Source of the DNA: Dehalogenimonas alkenigignens
GTDB taxonomy: Bacteria; Chloroflexota; Dehalococcoidia; Dehalococcoidales; Dehalococcoidaceae
DNA: 64,000 bases
Direction of reading: 5' to 3'
NCBI RefSeq assembly: GCF_001466665.1
Contig: NZ_KQ758903.1
Span: forward strand, 1,733,684-1,797,683
The notes beneath the pieces are model-generated. The model was not told the origin of the DNA and made no database searches. It was given only the letters and a program-made list of their open reading frames with translations. The first letter of the stretch is position 1; every line of letters starts with the position of its first letter. Below, piece by piece: positions 16,004 through 35,247 of this stretch. Position numbers and translations under genes: made by a program.

Positions 16004-16012
16004 GATCCTCTC

Positions 16013-17320: not shown

Positions 17321-17325
17321 GGCCG

Positions 17326-18774: not shown

Positions 18775-18783
18775 TTCATCTCC

Positions 18784-19539: not shown

Positions 19540-19552
19540 TTTCGTTTTTCTC

Positions 19553-21745: not shown

Positions 21746-21762
21746 GGGAAACCTCCCTACGC

Positions 21763-22350: not shown

Positions 22351-22381
22351 GAATTTCATTCCTCCTGTCTAGCGGGCTCGC

Positions 22382-22576
22382 CTAAGACTTTGAAGTGATG
22401 CCCTTCATCATCGGCATCAGGAGGGCCATCATCATCACCATCATGATCATCGGCATCATGGCCGAGAACATGCTGGTCATGTCGGTGGTCTGAAGGGGAT
22501 AGTAGCCGCCGACGGTGCCATACTGGTACTGCTGCGGGCGGACCTGCTGGGTATTGAACTGCTGGGCGGGATACAT
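22382..22576 (-). CDS. Met-rich membrane miniprotein, copy 1
   Basis: A 64-residue protein with AGGAGGTAGC before its ATG. The N-terminal 30 residues are Gln/Tyr/Pro-rich (QQVRPQQYQYGTVGGYYP); the C-terminal half is one membrane segment made almost only of Met with Ile/Val/Ala (SAMMPMIMMVMMMALLMPMM) and a KGITSKS end. It is clearly paralogous to the next gene. Met-rich segments could form flexible helices or bind Cu(I); neither is shown. Confidence 0.75.
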   Translation of the reverse strand: MYPAQQFNTQQVRPQQYQYGTVGGYYPLQTTDMTSMFSAMMPMIMMVMMMALLMPMMKGITSKS

Positions 22577-22612
22577 TTTTTAGCTACCTCCTGTAGTCGA
22601 CTTCGTTTTGGT

Positions 22613-22816
22613 TCAGTCCTTGGACGTGACGCCCTTCATCATGGGCATGATGATAGCCATCATCATCACCATCATGATCATGGGCATCATGGCGGAAAAC
22701 ATCCCCGAAAAGGGATCGGTGGTCTGGGACGGGTAGTAGGCCGAAGGTCCGGCCACCTGCATCGGACCCGCCTGGCCCGGCGCGAACGGCCCGCTGATTT
22801 GCTGTGTCCTGTACAT
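22613..22816 (-). CDS. Met-rich membrane miniprotein, copy 2
   Basis: A 67-residue paralogue of the preceding gene. Both share YYPxQTTD, then MFSAMMPMIMMVMMMA, then MPMMKG and TSK. The N terminus is Gln/Gly/Pro-rich. AAGGAG precedes the ATG. Tandem duplication and strong ribosome binding sites suggest high expression, as for a major coat or membrane-lining subunit. Family not recognised. Confidence 0.75.
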   Translation of the reverse strand: MYRTQQISGPFAPGQAGPMQVAGPSAYYPSQTTDPFSGMFSAMMPMIMMVMMMAIIMPMMKGVTSKD

Positions 22817-22884
22817 CGCTTTCTCCTTGTTGCTTTCGGTTGATTCTCATGCGCTAGCCTGATGTCGTCTCCCCCGAGCTGTTC

Positions 22885-22914
22885 CCCTCACCGCCGCCGC
22901 GACAGCGGTGAGGG
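22885..22914. other. Intercistronic stem-loop before the Met-rich genes
   Basis: CCCTCACCGC (22885-22894) pairs perfectly with GCGGTGAGGG (22905-22914) around a 10-nt loop. It lies in the 142-nt gap between the first gene of the operon and the tandem Met-rich genes and lacks a T-run, so mRNA stabilisation or processing is more likely than termination. Confidence 0.55.
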
Positions 22915-22958
22915 ATAGAAAACTAGCCTCCAGGGGAGATCATCAGGCGAAGGTGGCG

Positions 22959-23171
22959 CTACTCGAACATGGCGCGCTTGTAGCCGCTAACCATGACCGG
23001 ACCCTTGCCGTCGACGCCGTCGCGATAATGGCTAACCCGGCCTTCCTTGACCTTGAGGCCGGACGGCGCGATGCCGTTCATGCCGGTGCGGAAGGCTTCG
23101 GGGGTGGCTTTCTCCTGATAGGCGACGGGGACATTCTTTTCCAGGTCGTTCCAGCTGGCGTACTTACCCAT
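22959..23171 (-). CDS. Small soluble protein, paralogue of the gene at 14534-14842
   Basis: A 70-residue protein and the first gene of the structural operon, with AGGAGG before the ATG. MGKYASWNDLEKNVPVAYQE and TGMNGIAPSGLKVKEG align with the start of the protein at 14534-14842. The C terminus is GYKRAMFE. No known family. Its position as lead gene suggests early or abundant expression. Confidence 0.6.
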   Translation of the reverse strand: MGKYASWNDLEKNVPVAYQEKATPEAFRTGMNGIAPSGLKVKEGRVSHYRDGVDGKGPVMVSGYKRAMFE

Positions 23172-23246
23172 ACGGGCACCTCCTATTTAGTCTCGGTCCG
23201 TTCGCGGCCGGGACAGTTTTCGGGGTTCACCCTGGTCGGAAAGGCA

Positions 23247-23399
23247 AAGGGGTCAGCCTGAACCTAGCCGATCCAGAGTGCTGACCCCTTGTTGAAGCCT
23301 GTGAGCTGCCACTGAAAGCAAATAGCCTCGTGAGCCAACTTCAGTCGGCAAGCTCACGAGGCTTACGGTTTCAGATTATACAGGCCGTATTTAGCCTGT
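23247..23399. repeat. Three successive perfect hairpins between divergent operons
   Basis: Three inverted repeats lie in a row: AAGGGGTCAGC (23247-23257) with 23280-23290; AGCCTCGTGAGC (23324-23335) with 23352-23363; ACAGGC (23380-23385) with 23394-23399. They fill the gap between the structural operon (minus) and the Xre-ImmA cargo (plus). None is followed by a clear T-run in the direction of an incoming gene. They may be regulatory structures, an origin-like region, or the scar of the cargo insertion. Confidence 0.6.
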
Positions 23400-23437
23400 C
23401 AATAGGTTGAGGGTATTTTAGCTTTGATCGATATCAA

Positions 23438-23459
23438 GGTCACAATTTTGGTCACAATT
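23438..23459 (+). repeat. Direct repeat GGTCACAATT x2
   Basis: GGTCACAATT occurs at 23438-23447 and 23450-23459, a 12-nt period, ~70 nt before the start of the plus-strand cargo pair. A TATGAT box lies at 23481-23486 but no convincing -35 accompanies it. The repeats may be binding sites for the Xre-type regulator encoded downstream. Confidence 0.5.
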
Positions 23460-23524
23460 ATATTGCTTCTGGTCAGCATCTATGATAAAATCACTTCCAT
23501 AGAATCCAAGTCGTGAGGTTTCAA

Positions 23525-24163
23525 ATGTTTATTACTCTGGACGAGGCTACGGAGATTATCACTCCCGAGTTGGCTAGCAATCTTGCCTATTGTGCATCGT
23601 CTTCATTCAAGGACTGGTTCACTGAAGTATCAGAAAACGGAAGGGCTACTAGTACGCCTTGCACAAAGGCTAGTTTTATTAACGACAGGATGATCCATTA
23701 CGCCAAGACACTATTTCCTCCAACACCAGGATCGGCCATCAGGGTAATCAAGATCCATGGGCGATATCAAATTTTGATCGAAAACAAGCTAATCTTTAAA
23801 ATGAAAAAATTAAACCAAAACCTTCTGACGAGTAACATCCCTACTCGAACAGTGATAAACTTTAACAGGCAACTCTGCCCACCTGAATACGGAACTCAAC
23901 TTCGTTTTACTAATATGCCAGACGATATCACTCATCTAATTGTAGGATATAGAGAAAACTCACTAAAGACAGGAATTGGTTGTTTCATCACTTGCCCTGA
24001 TGGAAAACGCAATCGCTGGATCTTTCCAATCGGTTTCGCTCCCTTACCCATTGTGGCTAACAATTATGTTCCGGTTGAGCCAGATTCGCCTCGAGTCCAA
24101 CCAAAAAAGGTCACACCCAAGATTCAATCAGATCTATTAGGAGTAACCGAAACTCATGACTAA
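23525..24163 (+). CDS. Unknown partner of an Xre-ImmA protein
   Basis: About 212 residues from the ATG at 23525, with GAGG 7 nt upstream; the GTG at 23513 is an alternative. It is visibly A+T-richer than the flanking operons. The N terminus (MFITLDEATEIITPELASNL) is helical and the C-terminal half beta-rich (THLIVGYRENSLKTGIGCFI). Its end overlaps the Xre-ImmA gene by 8 nt. By position it could be the toxin or effector of a toxin-antitoxin-like pair. I do not recognise the family. Confidence 0.6.
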   Translation: MFITLDEATEIITPELASNLAYCASSSFKDWFTEVSENGRATSTPCTKASFINDRMIHYAKTLFPPTPGSAIRVIKIHGRYQILIENKLIFKMKKLNQNLLTSNIPTRTVINFNRQLCPPEYGTQLRFTNMPDDITHLIVGYRENSLKTGIGCFITCPDGKRNRWIFPIGFAPLPIVANNYVPVEPDSPRVQPKKVTPKIQSDLLGVTETHD

Positions 24164-25277
24164 TAGTGCGCCCTTTAATCCTGAGATGCTGGCTTTGGCG
24201 AGACAATCTCGAGGATACACGCAGACTGAGCTAGCGCAGCTCCTTTCAGTGTCACCAGGATGGTTGTCAAAGATTGAGGCTGGATTAAAAGAAGTCAGCA
24301 TCGAATTTGCGCAAAGGCTAGCAGAAGTACTTGATTACCCGGTCTTATTTTTTTATAAAAGTGCAAGAATATGCGGGCCGGGTATCAATGAAGTGTTTCA
24401 TCGGTGCCGTTCGAAAATCCCCGTTAAGGCTAGGGACAAGAATCAGGCTTGGACTGAAATTAATCGCTTGAACCTTGAATCTCTGCTTCGGGGTGTAAAT
24501 CTCGGTGATATTGAAATACCTCAATATGATATTTATGAATTCGATGGGAATGTACGCGACATCGCTCGATCAGTTAGAGCCAAATGGCAGTTACCACATG
24601 GCCCAATCAGAAATGTGATTAAAACAATTGAAGAAGCAAGGGGAATCGTAATTCCAATAAAATTTGAAAGCCGTTTAGTGGATGCCACGAGTCGATGGCC
24701 CGCAAATATGCCTCCCCTTTTTTTCATGGGTCTGGATTTTCCGACTGACCGTACTCGCTTTTCTCTGTGCCATGAATTAGGGCATATGGTAATGCATCAA
24801 AATGGCCCTAATCCTTATCAGGAAGAACAGGCAAATGAATTCGCAGCTGAGTTTCTAATGCCGGAAGATGAAATTAGGCCATTTCTTATGGACCTAACCC
24901 TCCCAAAATTAGCAGCATTGAAGCCCTATTGGAAGGTATCGATGGCAGCCTTGTTAAAGAGAGCCAAAGATATTGAAGCGATTACTGAACGGCACGCCAA
25001 GACACTATGGATCGAAATGGGGAAGGCTGGCTATCGAACTAGAGAACCTGTTGAGTTAGACTTACTTAGAGAAGAACCCAAGCTGCTGCAAGAAATCATT
25101 GGTGTGTACTGCAACGAAATGGGTTATTCAGTAAAGGAACTGGCATCACTGTTTAAACTAAAAGAACATGAAGTGTGTAGATTATACTTTGGAGCTCCGG
25201 ATAGCAGTGAAGCAGACGAAGTTAAGGCAGCGATAGAAGAAGCCGAAAGAATTCTCAATGAATATCGTCATAACTGA
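24156..25277 (+). CDS. Xre-ImmA/IrrE regulator-metallopeptidase
   Basis: A 373-residue protein with an N-terminal Xre helix-turn-helix (RGYTQTELAQLLSVSPGWLS) and a ImmA/IrrE zinc peptidase domain with intact HELGH and downstream EEQANEFAAEFLMP. Members of this class repress genes and cleave partner or repressor proteins after stress, or act as antitoxins. It is translationally coupled to the unknown gene upstream, on the strand opposite to the surrounding operons, and A+T-rich, all pointing to an independent cargo cassette. Confidence 0.85.
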   Translation: MTNSAPFNPEMLALARQSRGYTQTELAQLLSVSPGWLSKIEAGLKEVSIEFAQRLAEVLDYPVLFFYKSARICGPGINEVFHRCRSKIPVKARDKNQAWTEINRLNLESLLRGVNLGDIEIPQYDIYEFDGNVRDIARSVRAKWQLPHGPIRNVIKTIEEARGIVIPIKFESRLVDATSRWPANMPPLFFMGLDFPTDRTRFSLCHELGHMVMHQNGPNPYQEEQANEFAAEFLMPEDEIRPFLMDLTLPKLAALKPYWKVSMAALLKRAKDIEAITERHAKTLWIEMGKAGYRTREPVELDLLREEPKLLQEIIGVYCNEMGYSVKELASLFKLKEHEVCRLYFGAPDSSEADEVKAAIEEAERILNEYRHN

Positions 25278-25304
25278 ACCTAAATAATTATTAAGACAAC
25301 GGCA

Positions 25305-25529
25305 TTAGTCAAACATCGCCTCCTGCCAGTTCCGCCATTTCTTGTCCTGGGCTTCGGCGTAACGCTTCACCGCCTTTGCCGCCCACTCTCTCCGTCTAGC
25401 TGCCAGCACGTCTTCACTTAGGGATCGAGAGACCGCCGGAGGAGACGTCTCCTCCGGCGGTCTTCGCATCTCGTAATCGGCCCTCAGGAGCGCGGCGAGA
25501 GCGAGTAAGGTGAAGTAGTTATTCCACAT
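25305..25529 (-). CDS. Small charged protein with hydrophobic N terminus
   Basis: About 74 residues from the ATG at 25529, overlapping the upstream gene by 11 nt; the longer frame reads over that gene. N-terminal hydrophobic stretch (YFTLLALAALLRADY) then a charged helical tail (ARRREWAAKAVKRYAEAQDK). It is the last gene of the minus-strand replication/regulation operon before the cargo cassette. Function unknown. Confidence 0.5.
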   Translation of the reverse strand: MWNNYFTLLALAALLRADYEMRRPPEETSPPAVSRSLSEDVLAARRREWAAKAVKRYAEAQDKKWRNWQEAMFD

Positions 25530-25764
25530 TGATGATCTTGCCCTTGATGCCGAACATCGTGGAAAAGCCCCAAGCCAACTGCTCGCACAGCTTGTCCACC
25601 GGCTCACCTAGGTCGAGTTTCTCGTTCGGGTCCAGGAGATAGAACCTGACCTCGAGTCGGCCTTCCTTCCGGCGCTTGGTGATCTCCATGCCCATATGGC
25701 GCCCGACCTCCTGAGCCTGCTCCATTTGCTGCCGGTTGATGCCAGCCATTCCCGGATTAAACAT
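25519..25764 (-). CDS. Small soluble alpha/beta protein
   Basis: An 81-residue protein from the ATG at 25764, with AGGAGG upstream; it overlaps the stop of the zinc-finger gene by 1 nt (TAATG). The N terminus is helical (NRQQMEQAQEVGRHMGMEIT) and followed by RLEVRFYLLDPNEKLDLG. No family recognised. Translational coupling implies it works with the zinc-finger protein. Confidence 0.6.
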   Translation of the reverse strand: MFNPGMAGINRQQMEQAQEVGRHMGMEITKRRKEGRLEVRFYLLDPNEKLDLGEPVDKLCEQLAWGFSTMFGIKGKIINVE

Positions 25765-26549
25765 TACATGCCTCCTTTCTGTTGTTCTGTCTCCCAGCCT
25801 TCCGGCACGCCGCCGCCACCCCGGCCTGGAAACATCTGCTGCTCCATGATGCCCCACACCATATCCATCACCTTGTCGATCCTTTTGGTGTAAGCCTCGT
25901 CAACCGTCTTCGGCGGCGGTCCCTTGGGTAACTTCTCTTCGATGTAGCCCAAAACACCGCCGACCGCCTCCTGAGCCGCTTCCCTGGCCATTTCCGAACT
26001 GGCGCCCCGGGCCCTGGCCGCGGCGGCATCAAGCTCCTCGCGGGAGGCGTTCAGCATCCGAAGAAGCGGCTCGAAGCGTTTGGCCTCGGCTTCGGCCTGG
26101 GTCTTCTGGATCTGGGCGAGCTCCATCACAAGAAGCATCGATGACCTGAGCTTCATCATGCCCCGGAGCTCGCACTCCTCTTCGTAGCTGTCGCCCATGT
26201 ATCGGCGCAGGACCGCCTCCGGGGAAATGACCTCGCTCTGCTTGTACGTCGCCGGCAGGGCGCTTGATTGGGCGTCGGCTGCCGGGATCATCTTGGCCAG
26301 CTCCTGGCGGACCGTTCTTTCCTTAAAGTGAAGGTCTTTGGTGAGTTGCTCGAAGCTGTAACCCTGACCCAGGTACTCCCGGATCTCAGCGGCGATGCTT
26401 TCTTCATCGACCTTTACTTCCACCTGTTCGGGGGTCTTGCTTTCGCTCATGGGCTGTTCATCCTTATTCACCGGATGGGCGCCCGACGTATGACCGCCGA
26501 GGGCCTTAATCGATTTGAACTTCCTGTTGCAGATCTTGCATGTGTACAC
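25764..26549 (-). CDS. C2H2 zinc-finger protein with helical body
   Basis: A 261-residue protein beginning with a C2H2 finger, CKICNRKFKSIKALGGHTSG then AH (Cys4, Cys7, His20, His25). The KALGGH core resembles the plant-type QALGGH finger and the fingers found in archaeal viruses; such fingers are uncommon in bacteria. Residues ~50-95 may be an HTH (LTKDLHFKERTVRQELAKMI). The rest is helical and Ala/Glu-rich, ending in a Gly/Pro-rich tail. Probably a DNA-binding regulator or packaging/partition protein of the element. Tandem repeats lie ~80 nt upstream. Confidence 0.75.
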   Translation of the reverse strand: MYTCKICNRKFKSIKALGGHTSGAHPVNKDEQPMSESKTPEQVEVKVDEESIAAEIREYLGQGYSFEQLTKDLHFKERTVRQELAKMIPAADAQSSALPATYKQSEVISPEAVLRRYMGDSYEEECELRGMMKLRSSMLLVMELAQIQKTQAEAEAKRFEPLLRMLNASREELDAAAARARGASSEMAREAAQEAVGGVLGYIEEKLPKGPPPKTVDEAYTKRIDKVMDMVWGIMEQQMFPGRGGGGVPEGWETEQQKGGM

Positions 26550-26629
26550 TTCCTGCCTCCTGTGACCGGCGCCGCACCGGGTAAAAGGTCAATGAACCAT
26601 CCTGTGGAACGTACAGGCCGTGACTACAG

Positions 26630-26669
26630 TGTAAATACCCGCTGTAAATACCCGCCTGTAGATACCCGA
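26630..26669. repeat. Three tandem TGTAAATACCCGC-type repeats
   Basis: TGTAAATACCCGC is repeated exactly at 26630-26642 and 26643-26655, and TGTAGATACCCGA follows at 26657-26669. The repeats lie in the 195-nt gap between the AAA+ gene and the zinc-finger gene, ahead of the latter. They look like binding sites (operator or iterons); the C2H2 protein is the obvious candidate ligand. Nothing else is recognisable in this gap. Confidence 0.75.
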
Positions 26670-26744
26670 AATTGACTTAATATTCCGGCCTCCCCTCCCC
26701 CGGGGGTCACCCCCTCCCCATCGTCCGGCGAGTCGCCCAGGGGC

Positions 26745-27659
26745 TCATTTTGTTTCTCCTCCTAAAAGTAATCCGATTGCCTTTTCTACGCCGAGTTGAG
26801 GGGCGAGGCGCGCCACCCTGATGGCGTCGCGGACATTCTGGGTGAGGCCGTCCAGGCGGCTGGCAATCTCTCCGGCAAGCTCGGGACTTAAGCCTTCGCA
26901 TCGCACCAGCACGCCCTGTACCACGGTAAGATATTCCGCCCGGCCGTACGGAAGGAGTTGACGGATGGCGAACCGAGACCTCAGCTCCGGCGACAGTTTT
27001 TCGCTTCTGTTGGAGGCGGCGATGACGCGAAGTGGGTTGCTCAGGTTGAGCTCCCGGCCTCTTTTAGCCCGAACGAGCCGCCCGCCTTCCATCATGGTGA
27101 GAAGCGCCGCGGTGTCGGCGGCGTTCATCTTGTCGATCTCGTCGATGAGAAGGATTCCCGGCTCCCGCTCGGCCACCAGGTCCCATAGCCCGGCCTTCGA
27201 TGTCGCCGAACCCACCAGCCAGATGGCTTTCTCGCCCCCGGCCCTTTCGATGTCCCACAGAAAGAGCGTCTTGGCCAGCGCCGGCGGCCCGGTCAGAAGG
27301 ACGTGCACTGGCTTTTCGGCAAGGAGCGACGCCCTCAGAAGCTCTTTCACGCCGTCATGGCCGATGATGTCCCCGAAAAGAGTGTCAGTCTCGGCTAGGT
27401 TTGGTTCCTGGCGCGTCTCGGCGGGTGCGTTTTCGGCTGAAAGAAGGCTTTTGCCCATTTCGCTCAACCGGTAACCGGTGTGGGAGTTGGAGCGAAAGAC
27501 ATTTTCGAGGTAGCCGTCCTTGAAAAGCCGGGAGAGCGTCGCCGGCCAGATGCGGACATGCCGCCAGCCCCAGCCGATGCGGTAGTCCTTGTCCATGTCG
27601 ACCGAGTCTTCAAACCGTGCGATCTCCGAAAGAAGCTCCAGGGTGTTGTCTTCCTTCAT
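26745..27659 (-). CDS. AAA+ ATPase with N-terminal winged-helix-like region
   Basis: About 304 residues from the ATG at 27659 (GGGGGTGG upstream, 2 nt after the J-protein stop). Walker A is TGPPALAKT, Walker B ILLIDEIDKM, sensor 1 VIAASNRSEKL, with an arginine-finger-like LRSRFAIR. The N-terminal ~85 residues look like a winged helix (LSRLFKDGYLENVFRSNSHT). The motor resembles MoxR/RuvB-type AAA+ proteins that load or remodel DNA-bound complexes. Adjacent to replication genes, it may be a helicase loader or DNA translocation factor. Confidence 0.8.
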   Translation of the reverse strand: MKEDNTLELLSEIARFEDSVDMDKDYRIGWGWRHVRIWPATLSRLFKDGYLENVFRSNSHTGYRLSEMGKSLLSAENAPAETRQEPNLAETDTLFGDIIGHDGVKELLRASLLAEKPVHVLLTGPPALAKTLFLWDIERAGGEKAIWLVGSATSKAGLWDLVAEREPGILLIDEIDKMNAADTAALLTMMEGGRLVRAKRGRELNLSNPLRVIAASNRSEKLSPELRSRFAIRQLLPYGRAEYLTVVQGVLVRCEGLSPELAGEIASRLDGLTQNVRDAIRVARLAPQLGVEKAIGLLLGGETK

Positions 27660-27661
27660 CG

Positions 27662-28021
27662 TTACCACCCCCTTTCTTTTGAAACTTTCTTGAAAGCCTC
27701 GGTGACAAGCTGTGTCAGGTACTCGGTGCCCTTTATGCCGGCGGTGTCGGGATGAACCTTTCTCAGGAGGTCCAAATAACGCCGCCGTACCTGTTCTTGC
27801 GGCATGGAGCGGTCGCAGCCGAGAATACGGTAGGGGTCAAAAGCCGGCTGAGGGGACGCCACAACCCTTTCAGTCGCCGAAATGTCCATCCCAAGCCTTT
27901 GGGCGAAACCGATGATGACGGCCGGGTCCGCGGCACTGGTAAAGAGGTCAGCCATGAAAGCCTGAAGCTCGTACGCCAGGTTCTGCTGCATCCGTTTGAT
28001 ACGGTTGAAACGCTCTTCCAT
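27662..28021 (-). CDS. J-domain protein
   Basis: About 119 residues from the ATG at 28021. The C-terminal 60 residues form a J domain: DPYRILGCDRSMPQEQVRRR, then RKVHPDTAG with the HPD triad, then a third helix (AFKKVSKERGW). J domains stimulate Hsp70 (DnaK). The N-terminal helix (RFNRIKRMQQNLAYELQAFM) may bind the client. Phages and plasmids use such proteins to borrow host DnaK for replication or assembly; it sits directly before the AAA+ gene. Confidence 0.75.
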   Translation of the reverse strand: MEERFNRIKRMQQNLAYELQAFMADLFTSAADPAVIIGFAQRLGMDISATERVVASPQPAFDPYRILGCDRSMPQEQVRRRYLDLLRKVHPDTAGIKGTEYLTQLVTEAFKKVSKERGW

Positions 28022-28023
28022 GT

Positions 28024-28245
28024 TTACCACCAGAAATGACCGCATAAGATGCCCAGGAAGAAGCCGAAGAGGATCTGCCACCAGTATTTGCCGCCGATCC
28101 TGGCAACAAGTAATCCCAGACCGAGGAAGATGAGCATGAAAACGAGCGGCGATTTCTTCTGGTCGTCGCGGATAATCTCAGTCCACGGCCGGCCGCCCAC
28201 CCGGCGCCACAGGCTTTCATAGAGCCTTCCCAGAAAATCGATCAC
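28024..28245 (-). CDS. Small membrane protein
   Basis: A 73-residue protein with two closely spaced hydrophobic segments (LVFMLIFLGLGLLVARIGG and ILFGFFLGILCGHFWW) after a basic soluble head. It overlaps its upstream neighbour by 4 nt. Function unknown; it may anchor the replication proteins to the membrane. Confidence 0.6.
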   Translation of the reverse strand: MIDFLGRLYESLWRRVGGRPWTEIIRDDQKKSPLVFMLIFLGLGLLVARIGGKYWWQILFGFFLGILCGHFWW

Positions 28246-28487
28246 TTCTTGCCTCCTTTCGGTTTCAGCCAGCCGCGGTCTTCCTGGGGAATGGCCGGGA
28301 CAAGTTTGTCGCAGTCAGGACAGGCCTGGCAGATGTCGAGCACCAGGGGTTCGCCGCGGGCGAGGCGTTTCAGGTCTAAACTGCCGGTTCCCGCCTTGAA
28401 GGACAGGGGGTAGCCTCTGCGGCAATAAATGCGCTGTCCCAGCACCCGGGCATGGTTGCAGTCGTAGAGCGATCGCCTTTTCTTCAT
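28242..28487 (-). CDS. Small Cys-rich, possibly zinc-binding protein
   Basis: An 81-residue basic protein with Cys10, Cys22 and CQACPDC (starting near residue 53), a likely zinc or Fe-S binding set. It overlaps the primase/helicase gene by 4 nt, so it is cotranslated. I do not recognise the family. Confidence 0.6.
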   Translation of the reverse strand: MKKRRSLYDCNHARVLGQRIYCRRGYPLSFKAGTGSLDLKRLARGEPLVLDICQACPDCDKLVPAIPQEDRGWLKPKGGKK

Positions 28488-30781
28488 TTCACCCTCACCG
28501 AAGACTCTTCCTGGCCATAATCAATATCGATGCCCCTTTTATACCCGCCCAAACCGTCCGAACCGTCCGCACTGTCCGCCTCACGATTGGGCTTAGCTTT
28601 GGGGCTTGGCGGACGGTTTGTAAGGGGTTCGGCCAAACCGTCCGCCAAATCAGGGGATTTAGCTTCAGCCGGCGGACGGTTTACTAAACCGTCTTCAAAA
28701 CCGTCCGCCGAATTTGTATCTAAAGCGGACGGTTCGGACGGAGCGGACGGTTTTTCAGGGGATACGGGGATATCCTGTTTCATGCCGTACATCGAGGCGA
28801 TCCTTTGAGCCCGCTCAGGCTCCCAGCGGATCAGCCTCTGGCGGCCTTTGCCGACCCGGTCCTTGGCAAAGCCGAGTCTCTTGGTCAGATGCCCCACCCG
28901 CTCCGCCGTCAGTTCGGACGCCTCTTCATCGAGCCGGTTGGCCCGCGTGGCGATGCTCCTCGATGTTAGCTCGCCGCCCTCTCCAACAAGCTCGATCATG
29001 GCGGCAAGCACCCGTCCGGCATCGCTTTCCCGTCGCCTGGCATAAAGGGATTCCTGCAGCCGGTGAACGAAGCTGCCGAGTGCTTCCGCCATGGCGTGGT
29101 CGCCGTTAAGCATAGCCTTCATGGGAATGAGTATCTCCTGGAGACGCGGCTGAAGATTCGGTTCGAGCAGTTCGTTGCCGAAGGTCTTGCCCCTGAGGCG
29201 GCAAAGATTGTGAAGACGAAATGTCAAAAGCTTTGACCGCAGGGTACCGACCTCTTTGTCGAAAGAAGCCGGCAGCACCCGGGGGATGTCGTCGCGGGTA
29301 AGCGGCATCATTTCGGAGGTGAGACAGCGGCTTTCCAGTGCCTCATCGCTGAAAGGAAATCTTGTTGAAAGTAGTTTCGGACCGAACACCTGGTAGCCGC
29401 GCGGAAACCATTTGCCGTTTTCCTTGTCGGCCCGTAAGACCGGCATCCCCGGCCGGTAGCCGTTATTCAGAAGTTTGACCATTTCCGCCCAGGCGGTCGA
29501 GTCTTTGAAGTCTGCCTCATCCAGGACCAGCGTCCCCCGGAACTGCTCCAGGATGCGGAAGATCGGCGACGGCGTGGTGGCGCCGGAGGCGAACATCGGC
29601 CGGAAACAAATACTCCCAACCACCTGCAGAAAGCGCGTCTTGCCGGTGCCCCAGTCGCCGATCACCCGAAGATACGGGATCGAGGGGGCGAACTCGTACA
29701 CCCAGCTCAAAAGCACATATAAAGCGACAATCTCCTCGAAGTCGGCCGGAAGCTCCAGGTAGTAATGAATGAACCTTTGGATTTCGCTGAAAAGGCGGGC
29801 TTGCGAATCGTACGGCGCGGCCGTTGGGGCAAAATGAACCACGTGACCGACCAGCATGTCTTGAGTCGGCAGATAAGTCACCTTCGGCGTCTCATGTTGG
29901 TAAGCCTTTCTGACGGCGCCGTTCACTGAAACCATAAAGTATCGCTCATCCTCATCGACCACCATCTCGCCGACCGTTCCGTCGCGGAGGACGAAGCCGG
30001 ATACATAGCGCTCCTTGTCTTCTTCCTCCAGCTTAAACTCCCCGACGAGCTTTTCGGCATCGGCGAGGGAATGCTTGAGCAGATAATCGTCGATGCCGGT
30101 CTTCTGCTGGCCTTCCAGCTGCGGCAACTGGACGATATGAAGGCTGGCATCCTTGCGCCGGAGGTGTTCGGCGATGTGCGAGAGTGCCTTTTTCACCGGC
30201 TCCTTTGTCGCGATATCGGAATCGAAGGCGAGATAGACCTGCCGGTCTTTCAGTACGATGTGATCCCAGTCGGCCAGGAGCGTGACGCCGCCGAACTCGT
30301 TCTTGCCCTTGAAGCCCCAGACGCCTGTGACGGATATGGCGCAGGCGCCATGGCCGGCCAGGGCATCGGCTTTCTTTGAGCCTTCGGTGATCCAGAGGGG
30401 GACCTTGGGGATTCCGAGGGCTTTCTGGCAGCGCGGCGGGCAGTCGAGTCGGTTGCTTGAGCCGGCCGGTAGTTCGTACTTGACCGTTTTGCCTTGGGTG
30501 TTGGTGCGAGGATTATCGGACCGGAACTGGTAGCCGGCTGGCTGCCCATCGACGCCCCATAAGGGAATTAAAAGGCCAGGCACGCGCTGCTGAGCCGGTG
30601 CAAAGCCGAACCTTCCCAGCTCGGCTTTGCACACGATGCTCCGGTACTTCCGCTCCCGGATGACGTCGAGGTCGAGGCCGGTTTCTTCCAAAAGATGCTT
30701 CAGGTGACTTTCCAGAAGCTCCGGCGCGGCCTCGGAAAACACGCCTCCGCTAGCGGCCTTTTCACCGCTCATATCTTTCAT
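28484..30781 (-). CDS. Replication protein: TOPRIM-like (DUF3854) plus NTPase
   Basis: A 765-residue fusion. Residues ~60-245 resemble the DUF3854/TOPRIM primase-type domain (WITEGSKKADAL with Glu133; LAFDSD with Asp187/Asp189; TGIDDYL). Residues ~330-480 hold a helicase-type NTPase: Walker A GDWGTGKT (375-382) and Walker B LVLDEAD (418-424). The C-terminal ~110 residues are disordered and Pro/Ala/Asp-rich, and this stretch of the gene is built of short DNA repeats. Expected role: primase-helicase initiating replication of the element. It is the first large gene after the RDF-like gene (12 nt). Confidence 0.8.
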   Translation of the reverse strand: MKDMSGEKAASGGVFSEAAPELLESHLKHLLEETGLDLDVIRERKYRSIVCKAELGRFGFAPAQQRVPGLLIPLWGVDGQPAGYQFRSDNPRTNTQGKTVKYELPAGSSNRLDCPPRCQKALGIPKVPLWITEGSKKADALAGHGACAISVTGVWGFKGKNEFGGVTLLADWDHIVLKDRQVYLAFDSDIATKEPVKKALSHIAEHLRRKDASLHIVQLPQLEGQQKTGIDDYLLKHSLADAEKLVGEFKLEEEDKERYVSGFVLRDGTVGEMVVDEDERYFMVSVNGAVRKAYQHETPKVTYLPTQDMLVGHVVHFAPTAAPYDSQARLFSEIQRFIHYYLELPADFEEIVALYVLLSWVYEFAPSIPYLRVIGDWGTGKTRFLQVVGSICFRPMFASGATTPSPIFRILEQFRGTLVLDEADFKDSTAWAEMVKLLNNGYRPGMPVLRADKENGKWFPRGYQVFGPKLLSTRFPFSDEALESRCLTSEMMPLTRDDIPRVLPASFDKEVGTLRSKLLTFRLHNLCRLRGKTFGNELLEPNLQPRLQEILIPMKAMLNGDHAMAEALGSFVHRLQESLYARRRESDAGRVLAAMIELVGEGGELTSRSIATRANRLDEEASELTAERVGHLTKRLGFAKDRVGKGRQRLIRWEPERAQRIASMYGMKQDIPVSPEKPSAPSEPSALDTNSADGFEDGLVNRPPAEAKSPDLADGLAEPLTNRPPSPKAKPNREADSADGSDGLGGYKRGIDIDYGQEESSVRVK
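28552..28752. repeat. Iteron-like cluster of AACCGTCCG in both orientations
   Basis: Eight exact 9-mers lie within 201 bp: AACCGTCCG at 28552, 28561, 28636 and 28699, and its complement at 28610, 28673, 28726 and 28744, plus near copies at about 28570, 28687 and 28735. Several pair into hairpins; 28606-28620 and 28634-28648 are a perfect 15-bp inverted repeat. The ends are tandem triplets at 9-bp steps in opposite orientation. All lie within the 3' end of the replication gene, suggesting a replication origin. Confidence 0.7.
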
Positions 30782-30793
30782 GGCTATGGTCGA

Positions 30794-31777
30794 CTAGGAG
30801 GCGGCGTCGCGGTCGACGGCTTTTAGGAAGCGGCTGAGGGCCTCGGCAGAAAATTTCGCCGGCGGTAGCGGCCAGTTGAAGTCCCGTATCTCGACGTCGA
30901 TGTTGCAATGCTTGCTAAACCACTGCCTGAGCTGGTGTTCCCGAATGTCGAGCTGCCACACTTTGCTCTTGGCTTTGTCCCAGAGCCTGATGAGGTCGCG
31001 CTCGGTAACGCCGTCTTCGAGCCTGACATTCTCTTTATTGATGTTAATTGCCTCTTCGGGGAAAAGGTCGTCCGGCGCCGCACTGTCGGGCGGCGGCAGG
31101 AGCAGCACCTCGCTCGGAGGCAACTGGGCGAGCTTCTGGATCTCGGCCAGAGTAGAATGCGAGGTCAGCAGCAACACCCGAACCGTTTTCTTCCTGCCCT
31201 CGACGTCGACCTCTTTCTCGATGAGCCTTAAAGAAAGAGGAATCATCGACAACCGGCCGCAGGCGCTCTTTATGAGGTCAAGACTGTTATTCACGTTAAG
31301 GATGGAATGGTACGAGCCGGTGTCGAGCTGGTAGACGCCGATGCCCGGGCAGTCGGGGATGAGGAACTGGAGGTTCATCACCCGCTTGCAGCGACCGGTC
31401 TCGTAGTGGTGGCATGACTTCGGGCTGCAGGCTATTTCCCTAAGCTCGGTCTCGGCATCCTCATGGGTGGCGATTTGGCCGGTTTTGATGTTCACCCTGG
31501 CCACCGCCGTCTCGCCATCGCCGCGGCAGATGAGGCCGCGGTAGGCCGAATAGCACCTGAGGTACTGGCTCGCCCATTGGTTCGAGTTTTCGGTCGGCAG
31601 CATGACCGAAAGCTCGGTCGGACACTGCCCAAAGACCTTCTTCACCTCATCCGGGCAGACGAAGTAATCGGTCGGGACCGGGTACGAGAACCCTTCGCTA
31701 GACTCCTTCGTCAGTCCCAGCCTGATTTTGCCCAGCCTCGGCAACCTGATGACTCCGGTGATTCCCTTGATCGGCAT
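30794..31777 (-). CDS. Recombination directionality factor-like protein (phiC31 Gp3-like family)
   Basis: A 327-residue soluble protein. The pattern PTDYFVC, PTELSVMLP, WASQYLRCYSAYRGLICRGD, then a Cys cluster (CSPKSCHHYETGRCK) and VMNLQFLIPDCPGIGVYQLD matches what I know of the family annotated as recombination directionality factor, which includes the phiC31-type Gp3 proteins. These bind large serine integrases and switch them to excision. A large serine recombinase lies 1.8 kb away, across the repressor switch, which fits. The Cys residues probably bind zinc. Confidence 0.65.
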   Translation of the reverse strand: MPIKGITGVIRLPRLGKIRLGLTKESSEGFSYPVPTDYFVCPDEVKKVFGQCPTELSVMLPTENSNQWASQYLRCYSAYRGLICRGDGETAVARVNIKTGQIATHEDAETELREIACSPKSCHHYETGRCKRVMNLQFLIPDCPGIGVYQLDTGSYHSILNVNNSLDLIKSACGRLSMIPLSLRLIEKEVDVEGRKKTVRVLLLTSHSTLAEIQKLAQLPPSEVLLLPPPDSAAPDDLFPEEAININKENVRLEDGVTERDLIRLWDKAKSKVWQLDIREHQLRQWFSKHCNIDVEIRDFNWPLPPAKFSAEALSRFLKAVDRDAAS

Positions 31778-31901
31778 TTCCTTCCTCCTCGATCTTACTT
31801 TCCCTGGAATTCGCGTTGTCCATCTGATAAAGCCGGGCGATCATGCGAGCCAGAATCCGCAGACCGCTGTCCATCACTTTCTCCTCTGCCTCGCTAACCA
31901 T
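31698..31901 (-). CDS. Small helical protein overlapping the RDF-like gene
   Basis: A possible 67-residue protein starting at ATG 31901 with GAGG 9 nt upstream, overlapping the repressor gene stop by 8 nt and the RDF-like gene by 80 nt. The first 27 residues (SEAEEKVMDSGLRILARMIA) form a convincing amphipathic helix; the rest may be only the out-of-frame reading of the neighbour. Moderate support. Confidence 0.4.
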   Translation of the reverse strand: MVSEAEEKVMDSGLRILARMIARLYQMDNANSRESKIEEEGNADQGNHRSHQVAEAGQNQAGTDEGV

Positions 31902-32121
31902 CACCGTTTTCCTCGATGGTGAACAAGTCGTCGAATGAATAACTTTTGAAATAGTCGAGGAGTGTCTGACGCACGGCGGCTGTGGGAGCCTGCTTGCCGT
32001 TCAGGATGCGGCAGAGGTAACTCGGCGTGATCCCGATCTTCTTGGCCAGGAGCTTGCGCGAAAGGTTGTGTCGGAGCATTGCCTTTTCGAGGTTGTCTCT
32101 GTTCAATAACACCTTGAACAT
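31894..32121 (-). CDS. Xre-family repressor
   Basis: A 75-residue protein that is almost entirely a helix-turn-helix (LEKAMLRHNLSRKLLAKKIG, ITPSYLCRILNGKQAP). AGGAG precedes the ATG by 6 nt. It is divergent from a second Xre gene across a 160-bp promoter region with repeated operator-like sequences, the standard architecture of a lysogeny-type switch. Its operon leads into the RDF and replication genes, so it probably controls excision and replication. Confidence 0.8.
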   Translation of the reverse strand: MFKVLLNRDNLEKAMLRHNLSRKLLAKKIGITPSYLCRILNGKQAPTAAVRQTLLDYFKSYSFDDLFTIEENGDG

Positions 32122-32142
32122 GTGCTACTCCTGAAATTAGAA

Positions 32143-32180
32143 GTGAGCACAATAGTAAAACATATAACTGGTCTGGTCAA
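32143..32180 (-). promoter_or_regulatory. Leftward promoter with overlapping operator
   Basis: On the minus strand TTGACC (32180-32175) and TACTAT (32157-32152) are spaced 17 nt. The -10 overlaps GTGAGCACAATAG (from 32143), which resembles the TCACAATCAT sites found at 32191-32200 and, inverted, at 32259-32268. Drives the small Xre repressor, RDF-like and replication genes. Confidence 0.75.
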
Positions 32181-32190
32181 GGGCGTTATG

Positions 32191-32268
32191 TCACAATCAT
32201 CTCAAATTAGATGCAAATAATTGTCGGAAACATGTTGCAACTGTTACCGGAATGTGCTATGATTGTGA
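32191..32268 (+). promoter_or_regulatory. Rightward promoter with inverted operator sites
   Basis: TTGCAA (32235-32240) and TATGAT (32258-32263) are spaced 17 nt. TCACAATCAT at 32191-32200 recurs in exact inverted form at 32259-32268, covering the -10. The start codon at 32282 leaves only a ~12-nt leader containing GGAGG. Drives the second Xre gene, the ImmA-like gene and the serine recombinase. Confidence 0.75.
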
Positions 32269-32281
32269 ACATGGAGGGCTT

Positions 32282-32683
32282 ATGCCGGATTTCGCCGCGT
32301 ATATCAGGCAGCTTCGCCAGAAGCAACGTCTGTCCCTAAGAGATGTCGCTCAGAAGACCGGGATCTCGTATTCTTATTTAGCCCAAATCGAGCACGGCCG
32401 GAGGAACCCTCCCGGTCCGGATTTCATGAAGCGCCTGGCGCCGGTCTACCAGGTGACGCTCCGGGACCTTCTAAGAGCGGCTGGTTACCTGGAAGAGAGC
32501 ACGAGCTCGACCCTTAGCGATGAGCAGGAGGTGGAGATGGCCTTCAACTACGTCATGAACGATCCGCGCTACCAGTCCGGCACCCGGATGAGCGGTGAAC
32601 TGACGACGGACGTGAAACGCTTCATCGTCGAGATGTACGAAAAGGCCACGGGAAAGAAGTTGCTGCCAGAGTCCCATTCGTGA
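32282..32683 (+). CDS. Xre-family regulator
   Basis: A 133-residue protein from the ATG at 32282 (GGAGG 5 nt upstream). The N-terminal HTH is typical: QRLSLRDVAQKTGISYSYLA then QIEHGRRNPPGPDFM. The C-terminal part (EMAFNYVMNDPRYQSGTRMS, VKRFIVEMYEKATGKKL) is likely for dimerisation or sensing. It overlaps the ImmA-like gene by 4 nt (GTGA), so the pair is coexpressed; in such pairs the peptidase usually acts on the repressor. Confidence 0.85.
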   Translation: MPDFAAYIRQLRQKQRLSLRDVAQKTGISYSYLAQIEHGRRNPPGPDFMKRLAPVYQVTLRDLLRAAGYLEESTSSTLSDEQEVEMAFNYVMNDPRYQSGTRMSGELTTDVKRFIVEMYEKATGKKLLPESHS

Positions 32684-33612
32684 AAATCTCAAACGATCTA
32701 CGGGGCTTCTGTGAGCACCTGGTGAGAAAGTTCGGTAGCCCTGGAGCTACCTCCGAAGAGCAAAAGGCCGAGGAGTTCAGGAGGGTTTATCTTAGGAACT
32801 TGCCTTTGAATCTGAAATCGATCAGGGCGATCGCTTCATGCTGCGGCGCGGAGCTCAGGGGATTAGAAAAAATGCCCCGGAATGTCCGGGGGTATCACGA
32901 AATCTGCGATGGGCGACTCAATATTTACTACCGGAAAGATGATACGGTCAGCGGTATCCAGAATACTATCCTTCATGAGTTGAGGGAGATGATGGAAACC
33001 CTCTTTTCCACCATTGAACCCGGTTATGAGCCTCTAAGGACTAGCGCCCGCCATCTCGCCGCCAACCGCTTTGCCACCGCGGTTTTACTGCCCGAGGAGA
33101 AATTCAAGGCCGATGTTTTCAGTTCCGGATTTGATGTGTACGGTCTTTCTCAGACGTATTCGAAAAGTGCATCTCAGGTACTTCTCCGCATGGGGGAAGT
33201 ACTTCAAAGCCGCCTTTTCTTCTACGGCGCGTTGTTCGAGCCGGACGACCCCGAAGGCCAGGAATGGGCTGTCACATATTGGACCGGTAGCAGCAACGAG
33301 GATGCTGAAGCGAATGTCTTTGGCCTGGACGGTTTGTTTCCCAAGCGAGGCAGGCGGGCTCTTCCGGGTTCGCTCATTGATCTGACAATTAAATCGGGAA
33401 AAGCCCACCTAGTGCGCCGGATCACGCTAGGCGGCCCGGAAGATTTCGATGATGGCGAACTTGTGGCGCTTGCTGTTCCCATCGTGGGCGAGGCGACAGG
33501 AATTGAAAAGGTAGCGCTGGTGGTGCTTCTGTCCCGTGATGTCCGACTACTTGAGCCCCAAATCGAACGTATCAATCCGGAAATCATCGAGTCTTTCCAT
33601 AGACATCTTTAG
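32680..33612 (+). CDS. ImmA/IrrE-like protein with altered zinc motif
   Basis: A 310-residue protein. The peptidase signature is recognisable but changed: the expected HExxH reads HELRE (ILHELREMMETLF), while the downstream AANRFATAVLLPEEKF corresponds to the usual ANxFAxxLLMP block. A C-terminal ~120-residue domain (LIDLTIKSGKAHLVRRITLG) may sense a ligand. In integrative elements ImmA cleaves the ImmR repressor to start excision. Loss of the second His could mean a non-catalytic sensor or an altered metal site. It lies 12 nt before the serine recombinase gene. Confidence 0.7.
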   Translation: MKISNDLRGFCEHLVRKFGSPGATSEEQKAEEFRRVYLRNLPLNLKSIRAIASCCGAELRGLEKMPRNVRGYHEICDGRLNIYYRKDDTVSGIQNTILHELREMMETLFSTIEPGYEPLRTSARHLAANRFATAVLLPEEKFKADVFSSGFDVYGLSQTYSKSASQVLLRMGEVLQSRLFFYGALFEPDDPEGQEWAVTYWTGSSNEDAEANVFGLDGLFPKRGRRALPGSLIDLTIKSGKAHLVRRITLGGPEDFDDGELVALAVPIVGEATGIEKVALVVLLSRDVRLLEPQIERINPEIIESFHRHL

Positions 33613-33624
33613 GGGGAAAGGGCA

Positions 33625-35229
33625 ATGGAAACCGACGGAAAAAGAGCCGTAATCTATGCGAGGGTGTCATCAGATAAACAGGATGTCGACCTTTCTATCT
33701 CAGCCCAGCTGAGAGCCCTCAAGGAATTCGCGACCAGAAACCGACTTCAGATCGTACAAGAATTCATCGATGAAGCCGAAACAGGCCGGACAACCGCCCG
33801 GCCGGCTTTTCGCGAAATGGTGGCTTCGGCTCGCCGGTCGCCGAAGCCGTTTGATGTCATTTTGGTCTGGAAATACTCCCGATTCGCCCGTAGCCGTGAG
33901 GACTCGATCGTTTACAAGGCTGTTCTCCGGAAAAACGGAGTCCAGGTGGTTTCAATCAATGAACCCTTCGACGACACGCCCACTGGCCGATTACTTGAAG
34001 CCATCATAGAAAGCCTGGATGAGTTTTACTCCGACAATCTCGGTGAAGAAGTGACTCGCGGTTTGAAGGAGAGCGCTTCGCGTGGCTTTTATGTCTCACA
34101 CAAAGCTCCGTACGGGTACCGCAAGATCAAGGTGAAAGATGGCGCGAAAGAACGCACCAAGCTCGACATAGAACCGGGCGAAGGCAAAACGGTTGCGTCT
34201 CTCTTTGACAAGGTGATTCACGGCCAGGGATTAACCGAAATTGCCAAGGAATTGAACTCCAAATCGATCTCTTCGCCTACAGGCAAGACCTGGGGCAAGA
34301 CGAGCGTCCGGGCTATCCTGGCTAACGAGGTTTATACGGGAATCCTTGTCTGGGGCCGAGACAACAGACGCGGATTCGATCCGATCAGAGTAGAGGGAGC
34401 AGTCCCGCCGATCGTTTCGCATGACACTTTTACCAAAGTCCAACACCTGCTGAGAGAAAGAGCACCTGGCCGAACTCATCCGAAACGGGTCATCAGCAAA
34501 TTCCTGTTAAGCGGCCTGGTCCGGTGCGGCCACTGCGGTAAAGCCCTTGTCGGAGCCGATGCCAAAGGCGGCAAATTCACCTACTACGCTTGCGGGACGA
34601 TCATCAAGAAAGGCGCGGGCTCCTGCCGCGGCGGCTATCTCAATAGCTCGAAATTTGAAAGCCAGGTCATCCGCAAGATCAAGGAAAACATCCTGACCAC
34701 CAGCAACCTCTACAAACTGGTCGAGATGGTAAACAATGAGATGGATTCGACATCTCACAACTATCAGGACGACTTTAATGTAGTTTCGGCGGAAATCCTC
34801 GACACGAACCGTCGGCTGGAAAATCTCTATGATGCCGTTGAGAGCGGCAAAATCGACTTAAGCGACCTATCGCCAAGAATCCGCGATCTGAGACTTCGAC
34901 TTGAGAATCTCAAAGACAGGAAATTGCAACTTGAAGGTCTTTTAGCAGAAAGACGCATCGAACTCGCGGACAAGAAGATCATCGATGCCTACGTAAACGA
35001 CTTACGGCTGGAACTGGATAGCGGCGCTTTAATGGAAAGGAAGGCCTTCATTAAGACGTTTGTGAATGAGATAGAAGTTACCGGCAAAAAGGCTGTTTTA
35101 AGATACACCATACCCTTGACGCCGAAGGCCTTGAAAGAGGAGACGATAGGAGTTCTGTCTACCGAACACTATGGTGGGCGGCCGTGGACTCGAACCACGG
35201 ACTTCCTGCGTGTGAAGCAGGCGTTCTAA
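33625..35229 (+). CDS. Large serine recombinase (integrase)
   Basis: A 534-residue recombinase with a resolvase catalytic domain (VIYARVSSDKQ, catalytic Ser15; RFARSREDSIVYKAVL), a recombinase domain, a zinc ribbon (RCGHCGKAL ... CGTIIKKGAGSC, residues ~295-335) and a coiled coil, the standard architecture of integrases of phages and integrative elements. It inserts and, with an RDF, excises DNA at attachment sites. The last ~19 codons and the stop lie inside the tRNA-Val gene (GGRPWTRTTDFLRVKQAF is tRNA sequence read as protein), so the coding end is created by integration. RBS GGGGGAAAGG before the ATG. Confidence 0.92.
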   Translation: METDGKRAVIYARVSSDKQDVDLSISAQLRALKEFATRNRLQIVQEFIDEAETGRTTARPAFREMVASARRSPKPFDVILVWKYSRFARSREDSIVYKAVLRKNGVQVVSINEPFDDTPTGRLLEAIIESLDEFYSDNLGEEVTRGLKESASRGFYVSHKAPYGYRKIKVKDGAKERTKLDIEPGEGKTVASLFDKVIHGQGLTEIAKELNSKSISSPTGKTWGKTSVRAILANEVYTGILVWGRDNRRGFDPIRVEGAVPPIVSHDTFTKVQHLLRERAPGRTHPKRVISKFLLSGLVRCGHCGKALVGADAKGGKFTYYACGTIIKKGAGSCRGGYLNSSKFESQVIRKIKENILTTSNLYKLVEMVNNEMDSTSHNYQDDFNVVSAEILDTNRRLENLYDAVESGKIDLSDLSPRIRDLRLRLENLKDRKLQLEGLLAERRIELADKKIIDAYVNDLRLELDSGALMERKAFIKTFVNEIEVTGKKAVLRYTIPLTPKALKEETIGVLSTEHYGGRPWTRTTDFLRVKQAF

Positions 35230-35247
35230 CCACTGAACTAGCCGCCC
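35172..35247 (-). tRNA. tRNA-Val (anticodon CAC), integration target
   Basis: Acceptor GGGCGGC/GCCGCCC, anticodon stem CCTGC/GCAGG with loop TTCACAC (anticodon CAC), and T-loop GGTTCGAGTCC are readable; CCA is encoded (35174-35172). The 3' end faces the element, and the serine recombinase reading frame enters it, so the attachment core is expected in the 3' half of this gene. Confidence 0.93.

Follow-up and report, generated by a model that had tools for sequence, protein, structure and literature searches.

An integrative element in the tRNA-Val(CAC) gene

We analyzed a 64,000-nt window of the Dehalogenimonas alkenigignens genome, which very probably contains part of a 43.5-kb integrative element whose own large serine integrase placed it in tRNA-Val(CAC) and which carries a Gp3-like candidate recombination directionality factor (RDF) under predicted Xre/M78 control. 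Window positions 30794-35247 comprise a PF18897 gene, a divergent pair of Xre genes, an M78-like gene, the large serine integrase and the tRNA, and the order of the five protein genes was repeated in the 9 modules examined. The first-pass annotation had listed a serine integrase, a Gp3-type gene and a divergent Xre pair at tRNA-Val, and all of these parts are present (Table 1). The tRNA is the only one that ARAGORN found in the window, and no other tRNA-Val(CAC) gene was found in the genome. Directly readable from the DNA are the gene content, both element ends, the core, the palindrome, the tRNA overlap, the same architecture at many tRNA genes and recent movement between species. No terminase, portal or capsid gene was found among the portion of the ORFs that was scanned with PHROGs.

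Table 1. Features of the Val element and its target (window coordinates)
Feature	Position	Strand	Remarks
In-window part of the 43,469-bp integrated element	1..35171		left end (attR) outside the window
Candidate Gp3-type RDF	30794..31777	-	327 aa; PF18897, E 1.6e-47
Xre-type HTH protein A	31894..32121	-	75 aa; PF01381, 1.8e-9; conserved in 9 modules
Divergent intergenic region between the Xre genes, candidate operators/promoters	32122..32251		inverted repeat
Xre-type HTH protein B	32252..32683	+	143 aa; PF13560, 6.6e-14; conserved in 9 modules
IrrE/M78-like protein	32680..33612	+	310 aa; PF06114, 20.1 bits, below the 22-bit cut-off; conserved in 9 modules
Large serine integrase	33625..35229	+	534 aa integrated; PF00239, PF07508, PF13408; 3' 58 nt antisense to tRNA
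attL element-side (P) arm, within the integrase gene	35149..35171	+	GTTCT at 35152-35156; dyad partner at attR
8-bp core TGGTGGGC common to attL and attR	35172..35179	+	predicted crossover between 35176 and 35177
Chromosomal half of attL: the tRNA-Val(CAC) gene, intact after insertion	35172..35247	-	ARAGORN

Element ends and position of the crossover

The left end of the element, attR, lies at genome position 1725386, approximately 8.3 kb left of window base 1, giving an attL-attR interval of 43,469 bp. Within the window itself, blastn and a pattern search with the tRNA end returned nothing credible for attR. A direct-repeat scan alone also missed the site because the core is only 8 bp long; it was found by a dyad search. 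The attP site rebuilt from both ends is an imperfect palindrome centered between tRNA positions 72 and 71, and its center reads as the antisense of the tRNA 3' end (TGGTGG = CCACCA). Integration at the 3' end of tRNA-Val, as proposed beforehand, is thus borne out by two located ends, a palindromic attP that can be reconstructed and a gene order found in 9 modules.

When the center was left free, the dyad scan returned the same 72/71 position for the Val, Ala-GGC, Ile, His and Arg elements, with scores of 20-22, above the 19 that was the highest value among 100 null scans. Manual reading gave the 72/71 center also for two Ala elements in reverse orientation in the sister genome G006, and it was read twice in an element termed X and once in an element termed Y, bringing the total to 10 elements (~8 distinct attP sites) in both orientations. 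Core length ranged from 5 to 15 bp, with a central palindrome. Searches for the attR of the Ala-TGC (G000), Ile (G011) and Glu (G010) elements did not find one; one candidate, G010_C3, was discarded, as its score of 18 did not exceed the null. The exact crossover dinucleotide given in Table 1 is what this geometry predicts.

In the proposed mechanism, attP, which lies where the integrase gene ends, would recombine with the tRNA gene, strands being exchanged between acceptor positions 72 and 71. The final tRNA nucleotides are all that the element would have to provide; the tRNA stays whole, and the last codons of the integrase are read from the tRNA antisense strand. On excision, attP would be re-formed, the tRNA gene released and the integrase left with a different tail.

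According to the first-pass annotation, an intact tRNA-Val elsewhere with a different junction would refute its reading. A query with the joined flanks against the D. alkenigignens genome revealed no such copy, only the two junction halves and one weak, non-tRNA piece. In G006, the match to the flank of the Val element stops exactly at the core; an empty Val site was not found there, as both Val flanks are present with an unrelated 7.3-kb insert between them. Among viral contigs, 56 matches to the attP pattern were obtained, which we take to be chance matches because none of them carries this integrase; neither a rebuilt attP together with this integrase nor an excised form was found in these contigs.

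A Gp3-like protein and a putative Xre/M78 control region

The product of the PF18897 gene scored 162.3 bits against this family (cut-off 23.6), and phiC31 Gp3 itself matches it with 64.4 bits. The earlier description of a gene resembling phiC31 Gp3 across a divergent repressor region agrees with the family that both proteins share. All 12 Gp3-like genes in 8 genomes of the genus are located ~3 kb from a PF07508 gene, that is, together with a large serine recombinase, and in the modules examined they lie on the strand opposite the integrase. From this gene content, the Gp3-like protein would be the directionality factor that lets the integrase act on attL x attR. That it is instead a relic, or regulates something else, is improbable but deserves consideration: within the genus about half of the clade lacks the gene, as do 18 of 20 members from other genera (those with at least 3.5 kb of upstream sequence), and the pairing departs from that of phiC31, whose integrase is of another lineage and whose RDF is 18% identical and 244 aa long, compared to 327 aa. 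Against this stand the family match shared by the two proteins, phiC31 Gp3 being an established RDF (PMC5814800), and the constant placement next to the recombinase in the genus. A search for a solved structure of the Gp3-like protein gave no match.

The Xre intergenic region, parts of which are conserved between modules, is marked by an 18-nt inverted repeat (arms 32191-32208 and 32251-32268, 83% complementary). Judged by gene content, the divergent Xre pair and the M78-like protein would set when the integrase and the directionality factor are made, and the M78-like protein (310 aa) is possibly an antirepressor protease. The labels "excision module" and "switch" are likewise readings of which genes lie together.

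The integrase and its tRNA-encoded tail

Large serine integrases carry the catalytic motif Y-x-R-V-S near the N-terminus. This motif is found in the Val-element integrase, and residues Y11, R13, S15, S16 and Q19 are invariant in A1. The protein combines the Resolvase (1.5e-33), Recombinase (2.4e-22) and Zn-ribbon (5.4e-13) domains (Pfam E-values), matches a PHROG integrase (9.8e-116), and is accompanied by a short, dyad-symmetric attP with a short core, as expected of this class. The integrase profile of the clade gave 72 bits with the SPbeta type but only 21.7 bits with the phiC31 integrase.

The recombinase had been described as abutting tRNA-Val. The two genes do adjoin, but this is not mere abutment, since the last 58 nt of the integrase gene overlap the tRNA antisense. 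In the integrated state the last 18 codons are read from the antisense of the tRNA, ending ...GGRPWTRTTDFLRVKQAF, whereas the computed circular form has 536 aa instead of 534 aa and another tail, ...GGLRCTTDRTPVFEIVFDAL. For each of the three elements that were computed (Val, Ala-GGC and Ala-CGC), recombination alters the tail, which would suit a functional switch, where the C-termini of the integrated and circular states bias direction or stability. We consider such a role very unlikely: tails at 41 loci are anywhere between 11 and 89 codons long, arguing that the tail is probably unconstrained and leading us to reject it as a conserved domain, and the portion of PMC4701971 used here describes a comparable swap of integrase 3' ends at rumA without assigning it a function.

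A clade of integrases at tRNA genes

In the D. alkenigignens genome, 6 of 7 PF07508 genes end in a tRNA or tmRNA gene. The related integrases, which come mostly from Dehalococcoidia/Chloroflexi genomes, formed a set of 73 loci, of which 58 were testable after removal of 8 fragments, 4 loci with less than 150 bp after the integrase and 3 non-members. Forty-four of these 58 end inside an antisense tRNA gene, covering 14 anticodons and 10 isotypes; taken together, the two counts indicate that the overlap is not due to chance. The remaining 14 comprise 5 that carry a tRNA 3' end in sense, 2 with a truncated tRNA and 7 that are unexplained. A GTTCT arm is found at the same distance, 25 nt from the 72/71 center, in 40 of 45 loci, and the Val-element integrase shows both the ORF end inside the antisense tRNA and this arm. 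Ten isotype changes were counted on the integrase tree, a count drawn from those of its 54 clade and candidate rows that carry a tRNA label. The tree omits 19 of the 73 rows, including the full-length L038, L044, L046, L047, L059 and L061, which were dropped because the start-motif filter was too strict, and it includes L071, which is not a clade member.

The recurrence of palindromic attP arms inside the 3' end of the serine integrase gene, together with the integrase, at 14 anticodons also bears on whether another recombinase made the insertion. Tyrosine integrases usually show a longer block of identity than serine integrases. That the 237-aa tyrosine recombinase (PHROG integrase) encoded at 14820-15533 inserted the element, with the serine integrase as a passenger, can be given very little credence, although tyrosine integrases usually use tRNA 3' ends, since that protein is a shared cargo or module gene that lies divergently beside the integrase in other modules and away from the junction here, and the 5-15-bp core with its central palindrome fits a serine integrase.

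The GTTC of the tRNA T-loop in attB matches the GTTC of the attP arms with an offset of 6 bp and presumably lies about where the zinc domain would bind. The zinc-domain offset between attP and attB is 5 bp, and the T-loop GTTC was consequently rejected as an exact mimic of the zinc-domain site. Visual inspection of 5 flanks revealed no conserved motif in the half of attB that lies outside the tRNA. We tentatively suggest, as a reading with less than even prospects, that the clade is specialized on tRNA genes as a class: the attP center would copy the near-universal CCA end, the crossover would always fall at 72/71, and isotypes would shift via few core bases. As part of the same speculative reading, the outer part of the attB half-site would be the invariant T-loop (GTTC), and the enzyme would read tRNA-ness instead of a single gene while its targets stay functional.

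The Ala-GGC element has an intact empty site in G006, with 87% identity over 370 bp across the junction. Elements X and Y are identical at 1500 of 1500 nt left of the tRNA, and their target genes are swapped between two species (tRNA-Ala CGC and TGC, respectively, in G000; TGC and CGC in G002). Recent movement follows from this identical stretch next to swapped tRNA-Ala genes; element X is 98.8-99.9% identical over ~51 kb.

Comparison with known systems

Serine integrases in tRNA or tmRNA genes and exchanged integrase 3' ends are already known; our literature search found neither a tRNA-targeting clade of several isotypes nor a uniform acceptor-end crossover. A serine integrase at a tRNA gene had been singled out as unusual, and PMC3218068, in the section consulted, indeed terms such integration "rare". 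Its examples are Mycobacterium AICE serine recombinases in tRNA-Leu and phage phiRSM1 in tRNA-Ser, which like the Val element integrate into tRNA genes; the same section gives one tRNA gene per group and reports no multi-isotype clade or shared acceptor-end crossover.

The ssrA recombinases invoked earlier as a precedent do belong to the same bacterial group, but the ssrA integrase of D. alkenigignens is only 29% identical over 416 aa and has another neighbourhood; it is a distant paralogue on a long branch, and the Val integrase is a different gene. The Dehalococcoides ssrA islands carry DsiB, a serine recombinase of ~540 aa, at the tmRNA 3' end, and resemble the Val element in having attL within the integrase gene and in tandem island arrays (as presented in the available part of PMC3146451). 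According to the same part, they use ssrA as their only target gene and insert in the tmRNA T-loop with a 20-bp repeat, in contrast to tRNA-Val and the 72/71 center with a 5-15-bp core, and their module includes DsiA, ParB, Mom, a RecF homologue and a protein with an RNA-polymerase domain. None of these was seen in the Val module, where the neighbours of the integrase are the Gp3-like, the two Xre and the M78-like genes.

Streptococcal ICEs with a serine integrase at rumA have the direct repeat within the integrase and exchange 3' ends with the target gene, which is protein-coding, while the partner of the Val element is a non-coding tRNA gene that stays whole (PMC4701971, in part). Multi-targeting large serine recombinases, in which one integrase clade uses many targets, are surveyed in PMC10083194, whose main text, as far as it was covered, names clusters of protein genes and no tRNA. 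The Val clade differs from them in that specificity appears to be held at one tRNA position and not relaxed.

Implications

The way in which large serine integrases come to use a new target is still an open question, with relevance to genome engineering. Many integrase/attP/attB sets with defined isotype switches are available in the clade, among them identical integrases that occur in nature at two different tRNA-Ala genes. As every bacterium has tRNA genes and these are conserved, tools for insertion at predictable sites without disruption could be derived from such integrases. If recognition of tRNA genes as a class holds true, an integrase would move between isotypes without breaking its target tRNA. 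For the ecology of Dehalococcoidia, the hot spots for islands with defence genes and other cargo include tRNA genes in addition to ssrA.

A serine integrase module that ends within a tRNA-Val gene

The window lies at C1:1733684-1797683 of G000, a one-contig genome of 1.85 Mb. Every part of the module listed by the first-pass annotation was found, namely a Gp3-like gene, two Xre genes, an M78-like gene, a large serine integrase gene and tRNA-Val. The integrase had been described as abutting the tRNA; the final 58 nt of the integrase gene are in fact antisense to the tRNA gene. The integration module is genuine, and the earlier reading is supported and extended, with excision, recombination directionality factor (RDF) function and an Xre switch as putative roles assigned from the sequence. 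The region between the Xre genes contains an 18-nt inverted repeat and partly conserved stretches, putatively regulatory DNA.

Features of the integration module and of the Val element (the two genes placed on locus L011 lie left of the window)
Feature	Stretch	Position	Strand	Remarks
Type III restriction enzyme and methylase	L011	14332-19240	-	991 aa and 642 aa
HKD/SNF2-type helicase	window	5-3226	-	
Tyrosine recombinase	window	14820-15533	-	237 aa, zinc-finger-like insert
Xre + M78 protein	window	24156-25277	+	PADLOC RmrA family, best E 2.8e-63; PHROG 2439
Gp3-like gene	window	30794-31777	-	
Xre gene	window	31894-32121	-	
Xre gene	window	32252-32683	+	
M78-like gene	window	32680-33612	+	
Large serine integrase	window	33625-35229	+	
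tRNA-Val(CAC)	window	35172-35247	-	

Ends and cargo of the Val element

No second copy of the tRNA end was present within the 64-kb window. The mirror image of the tRNA-adjoining arm was sought in the neighbouring stretches, which placed attR at genome position 1725386, some 8.3 kb beyond the left edge of the window. The sequence TGGTGGGC is common to attL and attR, and the element measures 43,469 bp. When rebuilt, attP reads GGAGTTCTGTCTACCGAACACTA-TGGTGGGC-TACGGTGTACGACAGACAGAACTCC and forms an imperfect palindrome. Both flanks occur in the sister species genome G006 (85% and 91% identity), where the match of the left flank ends at the core. Since an unrelated 7.3-kb segment separates the two flanks there, an empty Val site was not observed. 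This segment (C1:772570-779906, L131) carries a 1797-codon open frame and no integrase of the tRNA clade. For the Ala-GGC element of G000 the empty site is present in G006: a 370-bp alignment of the joined flanks (87%) passes through a continuous tRNA, which sets the element length at 55,162 bp.

The cargo comprises a type III restriction enzyme and methylase, an SNF2 helicase, an RmrA-family regulator, an ArdC-domain protein, a beta-clamp-like protein, a subtilase and the tyrosine recombinase; restriction enzyme, methylase and helicase form a defence island inside the element. No terminase or capsid gene was found among the subset of element ORFs scanned, hence the element resembles an integrative island more than it does a tailed prophage.

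One integrase family appears to target many tRNA genes

Of the seven genes with a PF07508 recombinase domain in G000, six terminate in tRNA genes (Val-CAC, Ala-GGC, Ala-CGC, Ala-TGC and Ile-GAT) or in the tmRNA gene ssrA. The five tRNA integrases form one family, the other four being 42-53% identical to that of the window. Scans gathered loci from genome contigs (45), viral contigs (8) and the genus (21); 73 had a recognisable integrase and 58 were testable. The integrase end lay within an antisense tRNA gene in 44 of the 58, covering 14 anticodons and 10 isotypes (Ala, Val, Ile, Asn, Met, Leu, Arg, His, Glu and Gln). Among the remaining 14, five have a tRNA 3' end in sense, read from the sequence by eye (L041, L076, L088, L096, L099), two have a truncated antisense tRNA (L032, L092), and seven are accounted for by none of these arrangements. 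The records stem mainly from MAGs of Dehalococcoidia and further Chloroflexi, with labels such as Zixiibacteriota, Melainabacteria, Caenarcanales and Erginobacter on some.

A quick tree was built from 56 rows, of which 54 belong to the clade or are candidates for it and two are others; 19 of the 73 rows are absent from it, six of them full-length and excluded by an over-strict filter. The tRNA clade is set apart from the ssrA integrase and the seventh recombinase of G000, both on long branches, and locus L071 falls outside it. At least 10 changes of isotype and 21 of anticodon are required on this tree.

A probable common crossover position

A GTTC motif lies 25 nt from the point between tRNA acceptor positions 72 and 71 (72|71) in 40 of 45 loci. 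We scanned for attR while allowing the palindrome centre to shift three bases either way. The centre fell at offset 0 for five elements, Val (score 21), Ala-GGC (22) and Ile (21) of G000, His of G008 (20; 14.2 kb) and Arg of G009 (22; 9.2 kb), whereas 100 null scans averaged 16.6 and never exceeded 19. No attR was obtained for Ala-TGC (G000), Ile (G011) or Glu (G010), and a candidate, G010_C3, scored 18, inside the null range. The Ala-CGC attR was missed because it lay outside the DNA scanned; a genome-wide pattern search located this end 67.1 kb off, beyond the contig join, at 51,668-51,697(-).

Two integrases of G006, both in the sense group, point away from the tRNA. Each belongs to an inferred element (about 79 kb and 64 kb) that has a tRNA-Ala gene at its opposite end, and the matching arm directly follows that gene, with the centre again at 72|71. 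This centre was found in ten elements: the five from the scan, two in G006, element X in G000 and G002, and element Y in G002. X enters this list twice, with one attP used by both genomes, and shares its far arm and core with the Ala-GGC element, leaving about eight distinct attP sites.

Recent movement and a natural target swap

In G000 and G002, which represent one species each, two integrase genes agree at every one of the 1500 nt adjoining the tRNA. Element X occupies tRNA-Ala(CGC) in G000 and tRNA-Ala(TGC) in G002, and for element Y the targets are reversed. The two copies of X are 98.8-99.9% identical over about 51 kb, and both have the far arm, with different DNA outside it. The CGC and TGC genes differ by at most one base in the 30 nt adjoining the 3' end, so that a single integrase would meet nearly the same half-site in either. 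The G002 copy of X contains about 4.9 kb (G002:C1:1863190-1868127) for which the G000 contig join has no equivalent; this is either inserted DNA or DNA missing from the G000 closure.

At tRNA-Ile and tRNA-Ala(CGC), the left flank of attR is the arm of another element, and we read these flanks as tandem-array remnants. Left of the tRNA-Ile element (G000:C1:233561-237600) are two attP-like arm pairs about 4 kb apart, likely left over from a tandem array as well. On the outer side of the Ala-CGC attR (L200, G000:C1:51668-51720), the flank resembles the arm of a reverse-orientation element, which would mean that one tRNA was used in tandem by both orientation types.

A candidate directionality factor

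The Gp3-like protein of the window scores 162 bits against PF18897, and phiC31 Gp3 itself 64 bits; pairwise identity between the two is 18%. Twelve such genes occur in eight genus genomes, all of them with a PF07508 gene at a distance of about 3 kb, and nine modules among the 21 stretches compared have the order Gp3-like, Xre, then divergently Xre, M78-like, integrase. Against RDF function, however, roughly half the integrases in the genus lack the gene, as do 18 of the 20 non-genus integrases with at least 3.5 kb of upstream DNA. At several of these loci a divergent tyrosine recombinase is found in its place, namely at Ile and Ala-TGC of G000, at two other genus loci, and at L038, L043, L046 and L074.

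Relatives of the tyrosine recombinase of the window adjoin the integrase divergently in modules without a Gp3-like gene; the window protein may resolve dimers or substitute for an RDF. In Gp3-less modules an HTH-like gene encoding roughly 315-322 aa also lies immediately 5' of the integrase (L016, 16577-17524; L027, minus strand) and is a candidate alternative directionality factor.

Relation to known serine integrases

In published reports, serine-recombinase insertion into tRNA genes is termed rare, with a tRNA-Leu group and phiRSM1 named (PMC3218068), ssrA islands have attL within dsiB (PMC3146451), and integrase and rumA 3' ends are exchanged (PMC4701971). The word 'tRNA' is absent from the main text of a survey of thousands of large serine recombinases (PMC10083194). 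Searches of the freely accessible literature turned up no account of serine integrases that, as one clade, use a single acceptor position in tRNAs of many isotypes; the TIGER/Islander databases may already hold such cases. The exact crossover dinucleotide is predicted. Known chemistry here acts on an unusual class of target, the crossover position is unusually regular, and elements X and Y amount to a target-swap experiment made by nature.
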